A stretch of 64,000 nt of DNA, taken from positions 2,567,127-2,631,126 of the forward strand of contig NZ_MQWB01000001.1 in NCBI RefSeq assembly GCF_002257665.1. Reading direction: 5' to 3'. Shown piece after piece: positions 3,568 to 43,098 of this stretch. The position numbers and the translations under genes were made by a program. The notes below the pieces were generated by a model that worked only from the letters and a program-made list of their open reading frames with translations, did no database searches and was not told the origin of the DNA. Within the stretch, counting starts at the first letter, position 1. Every line of letters begins with the position of its first letter. Source of the stretch: Rubricoccus marinus (GTDB taxonomy: Bacteria > Bacteroidota > Rhodothermia > Rhodothermales > Rubricoccaceae).

Positions 3568-3593
3568 CGCCAGAGGCCTCTGGCGCCAGAGGC
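3568..3593. repeat. triple-arm copy of the GCCTCTGGCG motif
   Basis: Three alternating arms (CGCCAGAGGC, CCTCTGGCG, CCAGAGGC) overlap, so both possible palindromes are present. It lies in the divergent gap between the hydroxylase-like gene and malQ. Confidence 0.9.
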
Positions 3594-3661: not shown

Positions 3662-5185
3662 ATGACCCGTCGCCAGAGCGGCCTCCTGCTTCACGTCACG
3701 TCCCTGCCGAGCCCGTTCGGCATCGGCGACCTCGGGCCCGGCGCCCACGCCTTCGTGGACTACCTCGCGCGCGCGGGCCAGACCCTGTGGCAGGTGCTCC
3801 CCCTCGTGCCGCCCGGCTACGGGCACTCGCCGTACGCGAGCCCGTCCACCTTCGCGGCCGACGAGTTGCTCGTCAGCCCCGAGCGGCTGATCGAGGACGG
3901 ACTGCTGTCCTCTGGCGACCTCGCAGGCGCGCCGGACTTCCCGGCCGAGCGCGTGGCCTTTGGTGCCGTCGAGACGTACAAGCGCGCGCTCCTGGACCTC
4001 GCCTACGCCCGCTGGCGCGATGGCGACGCGGCGCACCTCTCCGAGGACTACATCCGCTTCTGCAACGAGCACGTGGACTGGCTGGACCGCTACGCGCTGT
4101 TCGCCGCGCTCAAGGTTGCCCACGGAGGCGTCGAGTGGATCGAGTGGCCTGCGCCTCTGGCGCGACGGGAGGAGAGCGCCCTTATCGAGGCCGCGCACGA
4201 GCACGCCGGCGCGATGGACCGGGTCCGCTTCGGGCAGTTCATGTTCTGGCGGCAGTGGGAGGCGCTTCACGATTACGCCCGCACTCGTGGCGTCCGCATC
4301 CTCGGCGACCTCCCCATCTACGTCGCCTTTGACAGCGCGGACGTGTGGGCACACCAGGGGATGTTCCGGCTCGACGCCAGCGGCCGCCCTACGCACGTCG
4401 CCGGTGTGCCGCCGGACTACTTCAGCGAGACCGGCCAGCGCTGGGGCAACCCGCTCTACCGCTGGGACGACATGGAGGCCGATGGCTTCTCGTGGTGGCG
4501 CCGCCGGTTTGCCCACACCGCTTCGCTCGTGGACCTCGTGCGCCTGGACCACTTCCGCGGCCTGGAAGCCTACTGGAGCGTCCCAGCCAGCGAGCCCACT
4601 GCCATAACGGGCGAGTGGGAAAAGGCCCCTGGCGAGGCGCTGATCCGCGCTCTGGAAGCCGAGTCCGGCTCGCCGCTTCCGATGGTCGCCGAGGATCTCG
4701 GCATCATCACGCCAGAGGTCACCGCGCTCATGGACCGCTTCTCGCTCGCGGGCATGGCCGTTCTGCAGTTCGCCTTCGGTAGCGGTGCCGCCAACTCCTT
4801 TCTGCCGCACACCTACCGCCCGCGTCTGGCTGCGTACACCGGCACGCACGACAACAACACGTTCCAGGGCTGGTGGAACGAGGAAGCCACGCCGGAGGAG
4901 CGCGAGCACGCCCGCGCCTACCTCCACCTCGACCACTGCACCGATTCGCCCGCCCGCGCGGCTGTCCGGGCCGTGATGGGTTCCGTCGCCGGGACCGTTG
5001 TCACGCCCATGCAGGACGTGCTTGGGCTCGGCGCAGAGACGCGCATGAACACGCCCGGAACCGTCAGCGACGAGAACTGGGCGTGGCGCGTCCGCGAGGA
5101 TCAGTTCACCGACGAGTCCGCCGCGTGGCTCCGCAGCCTGACCGAGTTGTACAACCGCGGGCCTCTGGCGCCAGAGGCCCGGTAG
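3662..5185 (+). CDS. malQ: 4-alpha-glucanotransferase (amylomaltase)
   Basis: The 507-residue GH77 enzyme transfers maltooligosaccharide segments between alpha-1,4-glucans. The sequence opens with the family's RQSGLLLHVTSLPSPFGIGDLG. It contains the nucleophile region VRLDHFRGLEAYW, the acid/base region VAEDLGIITPEV and the third acidic residue in THDNNTFQGWW. Length is normal. The ATG at 3662 is chosen over an upstream in-frame ATG because the family N-terminus begins here. It lies beside convergent glgX and, further on, glgB, so it probably serves glycogen breakdown. Its last residues (PLAPEAR) are encoded by an 18-bp palindrome. Confidence 0.95.
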   Translation: MTRRQSGLLLHVTSLPSPFGIGDLGPGAHAFVDYLARAGQTLWQVLPLVPPGYGHSPYASPSTFAADELLVSPERLIEDGLLSSGDLAGAPDFPAERVAFGAVETYKRALLDLAYARWRDGDAAHLSEDYIRFCNEHVDWLDRYALFAALKVAHGGVEWIEWPAPLARREESALIEAAHEHAGAMDRVRFGQFMFWRQWEALHDYARTRGVRILGDLPIYVAFDSADVWAHQGMFRLDASGRPTHVAGVPPDYFSETGQRWGNPLYRWDDMEADGFSWWRRRFAHTASLVDLVRLDHFRGLEAYWSVPASEPTAITGEWEKAPGEALIRALEAESGSPLPMVAEDLGIITPEVTALMDRFSLAGMAVLQFAFGSGAANSFLPHTYRPRLAAYTGTHDNNTFQGWWNEEATPEEREHARAYLHLDHCTDSPARAAVRAVMGSVAGTVVTPMQDVLGLGAETRMNTPGTVSDENWAWRVREDQFTDESAAWLRSLTELYNRGPLAPEAR

Positions 5186-41318: not shown

Positions 41319-42170
41319 ATGGTCTCCGCAGCCCCGTTTGCCCTCGCCCTGCTCCGCCTCGACGGCGTGGGCCGCGTCACCGCGCACCGCGTCCTGGAGC
41401 ACTTCGCCTCACCAGAGGCCCTCCGCGCAACCCCGCGCGAACAGGTGCTGCTGCGCCTCAAAAGCGCGCCCCGCGCCGATTCCATCGTGGAGCGCCTGTT
41501 CGGAGACGAACTCGACGAAGCGATGGTCGCCGCCGCCGCGCAGGTCTCGGCGCTCGCGCCCAAGCGCGTGGCCGTCCTGGCCTCTGGCGACGCGGCGTGG
41601 CCCACCGGCCTAGACGCGCTGCCGCCCGCGGACCGGCCGGTCGCGATCTGGGCGTACGGGCACGTGGACGCGATGGAGGCGCCTGCGCTCGCGCTACTCG
41701 GCCGCGTCGGTCTCGCGCCAGCGGCCTTCGAGGCGGCCACGCGCCTGGCGACGCAGTTCGCCTCTGGCGGGATCGTGACGGGCGCGAAGGATGGGTTCGA
41801 CCTCGCGGTGCAGAAACCCGCGATGGGCGCCGGCGGGCGGGTCGTCGCCGTCGCGCCGATGGGCCTCGCGCGGCTGACGCCGAGCCTGCGGCCGGGCGCG
41901 ACGGCGGTCGTCCGGGCGGGCGGCGTGCTAGTCTCCCCGTTCCCGATGAGCCACGGGCCGTTCGAGCACGACGAACGCGAGGCAGCGCTGATGCAAGCGG
42001 CACTCGCGCAGGTCGCCGTCGGCGCGGCGCCAGAGGCGGGGTCGCCAGAGGCGCGGGCGCTGGAATGGGCCTCTGGCGCAGGGCGCGCCGCGTTCGCGCT
42101 CGCTTCGGGACCGGAAGGCGTGCCGGTTCTGGGCGCCGACATGGACGCCGTTATTCAGGCCGCGCGATGA
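41319..42170 (+). CDS. dprA: DprA/Smf-like DNA-processing protein
   Basis: The 283-residue protein has a helix-hairpin-helix start ([20 protein letters not shown]) and then a Rossmann-like DprA fold recognisable by [21 protein letters not shown], a [19 protein letters not shown] segment and [43 protein letters not shown]. DprA loads RecA on incoming single strands during natural transformation. The canonical SGxAxGID motif is altered here, so it is a divergent member. It overlaps the next gene by 4 bases (ATGA). A competence gene fits the uptake-signal hypothesis for the 10-mer motif. Confidence 0.75.
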
Positions 42171-43078
42171 CCCGTTGCCTGTTCGTGTTTCTGGACGGCG
42201 TGGGCTTGGGGCCGGCGAGTCCGCACAACCCACTTTACACCCTGCCGCTTCCCGCCTTCCGAGACCTCGCGGGCGGCCAGGCGTGGACGGCCGAGGCCAC
42301 GCCGGTCCGCCAGAAGCGGCACGTGTTCACCTCGCTCGACGCCACGCTGGGCATGGAGGGCCTGCCACAGAGCGGGACGGGGCAGGTCGCTCTGTTCGCG
42401 GGCATCGACGGGCCGAAGCTGCACGGGCGCCACTTCGGTCCGTACCCGCCGAGCACGACGCACGAGCCTCTGGCGGAAAACAGCGTCTTTGAGCGGCTCA
42501 AGCGGCGCGGCATCGCGCCAGAGGCGATGGCGCTGGCGAACGGCTACCCGGAGCGGTACTTCAAGCTCATGGAGGCGCGCAACCGCTGGAACACGTCGTC
42601 GCGCGCGGCGCGGGCCTCTGGCGTCCGGCTGCGAACGGCGGCGGACCTCGCGATCGGCGAGGCGCTCCCGGCAGACTTTACCGGCCACGCGTGGCAGCGC
42701 CACATCGACCCGGACCACGTCACGGTCTCGCCCGAGGCGGCCGGGCAGCGCTTGGTCGCGCTCGCCAAAAGGCACCGGTTCACGCTCTACGACTTTCCGC
42801 ATACCGACACGGCGGGTCACGGCCGCGACGGACTCACGCCCGAGATCGTCCTGCCCATGGTGGACGCCTTTCTCGGCGCCATCCACGCCGCGATGGACAC
42901 GGAGCACGACCTCCTCGTGGTCTCCAGCGACCACGGCAACATCGAGCGGCCGACGACGAAGAGCCACACCACGAACCCGGTCCCGCTCATCGCGGTCGGT
43001 CCCGGCGCGGAGCGTTTCGCGGAGGCGGCTTCGCTGCTCGACGTAGCGCCGGCGCTTGTAGAGGCGCTTACGGCGTAG
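42167..43078 (+). CDS. metalloenzyme of the phosphoglyceromutase/alkaline phosphatase superfamily
   Basis: The 303-residue protein begins with LFVFLDGVGLGP, whose Asp binds a metal. It continues with SGTGQVALFAG, which carries the Ser phospho-acceptor region of the superfamily, and ends with the metal-binding YDFPHTDTAGH and VVSSDHGNIE pair plus a SHTTNPVPLIAVG His. This is the layout of cofactor-independent phosphoglyceromutase relatives, but it is much shorter than GpmI (about 510 residues) and closer to stand-alone PF01676 proteins. Its substrate is unclear. It is translationally coupled to dprA by an ATGA overlap. Confidence 0.78.
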   Translation: MTRCLFVFLDGVGLGPASPHNPLYTLPLPAFRDLAGGQAWTAEATPVRQKRHVFTSLDATLGMEGLPQSGTGQVALFAGIDGPKLHGRHFGPYPPSTTHEPLAENSVFERLKRRGIAPEAMALANGYPERYFKLMEARNRWNTSSRAARASGVRLRTAADLAIGEALPADFTGHAWQRHIDPDHVTVSPEAAGQRLVALAKRHRFTLYDFPHTDTAGHGRDGLTPEIVLPMVDAFLGAIHAAMDTEHDLLVVSSDHGNIERPTTKSHTTNPVPLIAVGPGAERFAEAASLLDVAPALVEALTA

Positions 43079-43080
43079 CT

Positions 43081-43098
43081 CGCCAGAGGCCTCTGGCG
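43081..43098. repeat. 18-bp palindrome CGCCAGAGGCCTCTGGCG after the phosphomutase-like gene
   Basis: A perfect copy 2 bases after the TAG stop. A worn second copy (CCTCTGGCGCTATAGG) lies at about 43126-43141, before the stop of the convergent gene. Confidence 0.85.

Follow-up and report, generated by a model that had tools for sequence, protein, structure and literature searches.

The gene at positions 41319–42170 of the 64,000-nucleotide stretch of Rubricoccus marinus DNA analysed here (the window) encodes a divergent DprA-like protein and is followed by a gene of the metalloenzyme superfamily. Both genes carry exact copies of the 10-base word CGCCAGAGGC, and two further copies are fused into a palindrome just beyond the second gene (Table 1). 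An earlier note had taken the dprA-like gene as a sign that the word is linked to natural transformation. The gene is indeed present, but it is a distant paralogue, and the canonical dprA of R. marinus lies elsewhere (C1:1334630, E = 5e-73). As a divergent paralogue the gene is poor evidence for the link, and the support for natural transformation comes from the competence genes of R. marinus, from the depletion of the word on a plasmid and, decisively, from the dialects of its relatives. Of 20 genomes from the order, most contain relatives of this short paralogue besides the canonical dprA; at two further loci, L001 and L002, the paralogue likewise adjoins a metalloenzyme-superfamily gene.

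Table 1. Features of the window, with positions counted from its first base
Feature	Position	Strand	Basis or remark
CGCCAGAGGC, 225 exact copies across the entire window	1–64000	both	exact search and shuffle control
Divergent DprA-like gene, second paralogue, five CGCCAGAGGC copies	41319–42170	+	PF02481, E = 1.2e-11
CGCCAGAGGC copy within DprA-like gene	41580–41589	-	exact search
CGCCAGAGGC copy within DprA-like gene	41760–41769	-	exact search
CGCCAGAGGC copy within DprA-like gene	42028–42037	+	exact search
CGCCAGAGGC copy within DprA-like gene	42043–42052	+	exact search
CGCCAGAGGC copy within DprA-like gene	42069–42078	-	exact search
Metalloenzyme-superfamily gene, three CGCCAGAGGC copies, downstream of DprA-like gene	42167–43078	+	PF01676, E = 2.5e-19
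Overlapping inverted pair, forming the 18-bp palindrome CGCCAGAGGCCTCTGGCG	43081–43098	43081+ and 43089-	3 bp past the stop codon of 42167–43078, ahead of a convergent gene
Overlapping inverted pair GCCTCTGGCGCCAGAGGC	2804–2821	2804- and 2812+	right at the end of gene 2196–2804, in a convergent gap
Three overlapping copies in alternating orientation, chained palindromes	3568–3593	3568+, 3576- and 3584+	exact search

Abundance and distribution of the word

Counting of k-mers showed CGCCAGAGGC, whose reverse complement is GCCTCTGGCG, to be the commonest 10-mer of the window by a wide margin, with 109 copies on the plus and 116 on the minus strand, or ~3.5 per kb. Dinucleotide shuffles of the window gave an expected 0.61 copies and a maximum of 3. 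The published genome of strain SG-29T comprises 4,430,441 bp in 15 scaffolds (PMC5609423). In this 4.43-Mb genome the word occurs 14,176 times (7,127 + and 7,049 -), against 61 occurrences (37 + and 24 -) of the reversed word used as control. This gives a density of ~3.2/kb, and in sampled chromosomal DNA the copies cover 3.4% of all bases. The word differs from its own reverse complement and is thus non-palindromic, as are the words of the relatives, and nothing in its flanks is strongly conserved.

The statistics of distribution were obtained from ~0.4 Mb of sampled R. marinus sequence with simple home-made gene calls, in addition to the whole-genome counts. The two orientations are balanced (726 versus 718 over 20 loci, p ≥ 0.34 at every locus). 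Genes contain 65.6% of the sampled copies, at a density of 2.6/kb; the density is 3.1-fold greater between genes (8.2/kb) and reaches 14/kb between convergent genes. Copies within coding sequence use all six reading frames, and rare codons are enriched in them (TCT 45%, AGA 57%, CCA 36%). Since all six frames are used and the rare codons lie largely inside the copies, the pressure acts on DNA and not on protein. An explanation by codon bias was rejected, the density being higher between genes and the rare codons enriched in the motifs.

Neighbouring copies show a strong preference for inversion: among those no more than 60 bp apart, 305 pairs are inverted and 48 direct. Two copies that overlap by two bases form an 18-bp palindrome, and 138 of these were found where placement at the same density predicts 3.7. 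Of 316 gene ends, 113 (36%) have an inverted pair in the 120 bp downstream, and of 316 gene starts, 71 (22%) have one upstream. Close inverted pairs fall wholly inside genes in 115 cases and wholly between genes in 127. There is no T-run beside the fused palindromes, whose flanks contain 13–17% T, the genome average, and a search of IMG/VR with the fused 18-bp palindrome gave no match. The earlier note had described a motif scattered more densely than known uptake sequences, lying in coding regions and forming inverted pairs at gene ends. Each of these traits proved to be real, and the phenomenon is larger than was first stated.

The word is depleted on contig C15, where only four copies occur in 40 kb. 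This contig encodes a Rep3 initiator together with a relaxase and is the one clear plasmid on which the depletion rests. Samples of 20 kb from contigs C11 and C14 gave densities of ~0.45/kb and 0.4/kb, respectively. C15 (L042, L093) also encodes a type ISP restriction-modification-like enzyme, and a VirB11-like/TraG-like module is common to C14 (L092) and C15.

Dialects in related genomes

The relatives of R. marinus do not share its word, and in the congener G001 CGCCAGAGGC shows no excess (99 copies, control 101). This genome is instead enriched in CCGCCAGC, with 8,020 copies against 1,599 of its control, and so is the more distant G007 (7,454 copies, control 2,023). A third word, CCGAGGCGG (reverse complement CCGCCTCGG), is found in G004, G006 and G008 at 4,084, 3,300 and 2,523 copies, with controls of 459, 241 and 304, respectively. 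All three words contain CGCC, and two of the three contain CGCCAG. The words of the relatives likewise prefer intergenic DNA, and inverted pairs are seen in G001, G007 and G004.

The DprA tree groups R. marinus (G000) with G001, and the others as (G007,(G006,(G004,G008))); the conserved pilus proteins agree with it, and the dialects track this phylogeny. The simplest history that we can infer starts from CCGCCAGC as the ancestral word, which then changed twice, once in the lineage leading to R. marinus and once in the common ancestor of G004, G006 and G008. When 71 coding copies of CGCCAGAGGC were aligned to G001, 53 of the 71 sites were ungapped and none was shared, and therefore the sites turn over, mostly by substitution. 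Samples of 32–48 kb from three further members of the family, G002, G003 and G005, contained no evident over-represented word, though a pilus ATPase and ComEC are present in them.

Competence genes and the minor pilin trio

The competence genes that were searched for (ComEC, ComEA, DprA, PilB, PilC, PilT, PilQ and minor pilins) are present in R. marinus. In addition to the canonical DprA, we found ComEC (852 aa), a ComEA-like protein, adjacent PilC and PilB, and an operon encoding three putative minor pilins, PilT, two undefined proteins and a PilQ-like secretin. The three pilins are assigned by their place in the operon and a hydrophobic N-terminal segment and not by a family match; sequence and profile searches placed them in no recognised family and found no PDB relative. 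A pilus ATPase and ComEC also occur in the word-carrying G004, G006, G007 and G008. The lack of a competence apparatus in motif-carrying genomes, which had been named as evidence against the link, is thus not what is seen in these four and R. marinus, whereas G001 gave a different result. This metagenome bin (UWMA-0293, 91% complete) has a strong dialect and no match to T2SSE or T2SSF (the pilus ATPases and PilC) or to a minor pilin. There are two explanations, an incomplete bin that lacks both pilus loci or a loss of the pilus in this lineage. In a search of the regions that would flank the G001 pilus genes, one flanking gene had no match and the neighbourhood of uppP was not syntenic.

The three minor pilins differ greatly in sequence where the dialects differ. 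Between G004 and G006, which use the same word, their identity is 67–76%, whereas that between either of these genomes and G007, which uses another, is 33–41%, with PilB, PilC and PilT still at 86–91%. When G004 and G007 were compared by BLAST, the members of the trio ranked lowest in identity among 29 ortholog pairs (29–31%, median 73%). The reason is seen in G008, which has two tandem trios, one of the G004 type and one of the G007 type (L154:1-4020, L155:2421-3308), and uses the CCGAGGCGG dialect, that of its G004-type trio, despite also carrying the other. Two tandem trios are also found in G002, inside the type IV pilus operon (L166:8381-14332). The trio is a modular, fast-evolving cassette within that operon. 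From its divergence across the dialect boundary and its occurrence in tandem, this duplicated and replaceable cassette appears to be the best candidate for the receptor of the word, on the evidence of one dialect boundary at which dialect is confounded with phylogeny. The pilins of R. marinus resemble the G004 type more than the G007 type, yet its word is nearer to that of G007.

Possible role of the word and its comparison with known systems

In the literature searched, uptake sequences are described for two proteobacterial families only. The uptake signal sequences (USS) of the Pasteurellaceae, of the Hin and Apl types, resemble CGCCAGAGGC in many respects: both are short non-palindromic words with copies on the scale of thousands, 65% of them coding, with a preference for non-coding DNA, no strand or orientation bias, some inverted pairs, an origin by substitution and, in the two USS dialects, a common inner core (PMC1626085, PMC12616744). 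The R. marinus word differs from USS in being of other sequence, GC-rich and denser (~3.2/kb versus ~0.8/kb), in having no AT-rich flanking segments and in belonging to another phylum; uptake is demonstrated for USS and is inferred here. The DNA uptake sequences (DUS) of the Neisseriaceae are also words of 10–12 bp, with several dialects that follow phylogeny; overlapping dyad pairs occur in Simonsiella muelleri, and DUS occupy 2.5% of the genome in Kingella oralis (PMC3630211). Their receptor is a minor pilin, ComP. In R. marinus a minor pilin is a candidate only, and sequence comparison links the trio to none of the known minor pilins; the word itself is again of different sequence.

On this comparative evidence we think it likely that CGCCAGAGGC is a DNA uptake sequence, a self-DNA tag, of R. 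marinus, and it probably belongs to an uptake-signal system that arose independently in the Rhodothermota. A minor pilin on a competence type IV pilus would bind the word on extracellular DNA, retraction by PilT would pull the bound DNA through PilQ, ComEA and ComEC would move it inward, and DprA with RecA would recombine it. If tagged DNA is favoured in this way, new copies arising by point mutation would tend to spread by transformation, and the word would therefore build up on both strands at all sites that tolerate it. A shift in receptor specificity would then let the genome drift to a new dialect, as may have happened in the close relatives. The fuller proposal seems to us somewhat favoured: that uptake sequences evolved here for a third time, independently, with at least three dialects in one family and more copies than any other uptake sequence in the comparison, and that the fast-evolving, tandemly duplicated minor pilin trio is its specificity receptor.

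A rival explanation is that of a word like HIP1 (GCGATCGC) of the cyanobacteria, built up by mutation related to a methyltransferase or to mismatch repair, or serving some other chromosomal role, and unconnected with DNA uptake. HIP1 has a very high density, and HIP words too are lost or replaced between relatives (PMC4390886); the 3.2/kb found here resembles the density of HIP-type words more than that of most USS or DUS, but occupancy in one DUS dialect, at 2.5%, is similar (PMC3630211). G001 retains its dialect with no detectable pilus genes, and the words on inspection have partly palindromic arms, GCC-AGA-GGC and CCG-AGG-CGG. Whereas HIP1 is palindromic and tied to methyltransferases, however, the words described here are not palindromes and have no uninterrupted palindromic core of 4 bp or more of the GATC or CGATCG kind, they pair in inversion and concentrate between genes, and CGCC alone is common to the dialects. 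We regard a HIP1-like word as unlikely. A chromosome-organising or recombination signal read inside the cell, resembling Chi, KOPS or the sites of a nucleoid protein, would fit the genome-wide spread and the scarcity of the word on the plasmid contig. Chi and KOPS point along the direction of replication, and the even strand counts at each of the 20 loci, where orientation does not follow replication, argue against signals of this type; the word is moreover replaced in relatives, and inverted pairing with a high density between convergent genes would not be expected. Such a signal is quite improbable.

The inverted pairs after 36% of gene ends and the 14 copies per kb between convergent genes are what would be seen if the word served mainly in transcription terminators or RNA hairpins, with the single copies as by-products. 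Most copies, however, lie in genes, the close inverted pairs are nearly as numerous within genes as between them, and the fused palindromes have no T-run in their flanks, which makes this main function very improbable. A secondary use as terminators is known for DUS and USS and may occur here. The weakest case is that for a short mobile or self-copying element, or for a by-product of protein composition, which we consider extremely improbable. Gaps relative to G001 are found at 25% of the aligned coding copies, as mobility would predict, but 75% of the sites are ungapped, a similar gap share was obtained for USS in the same kind of test (PMC1626085), and no strongly conserved flank extends past the word. 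Composition of proteins is contradicted by the use of all six frames, the enrichment of rare codons and the higher intergenic density.

The literature searched, an incomplete set, yielded neither an account of uptake words in this group nor an uptake experiment, and no uptake signal is described in the phylum of R. marinus. If CGCCAGAGGC does act as an uptake sequence, it would have arisen independently in another phylum, and its dialects would change within a single genus. Such a case would show which features are general (transformation drive, pilin receptors, inverted pairs) and which are inherited, and comparison could then be used to test the views put forward in the long debate on why uptake sequences exist. 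The trio provides a short list of candidate receptors, and since R. marinus is cultured, an uptake test is feasible.

A different over-represented word, CGGCAACGC / GCGTTGCC, was observed in Bacteroidetes bacterium QS_9_68_14 (L002), where the 8-mer has 23 copies in 21 kb against ~3 expected. We have not counted it as a dialect because it is without inverted pairing, one pair only being inverted and five direct; it is perhaps a repeat, or else a system of the same sort in a further family.
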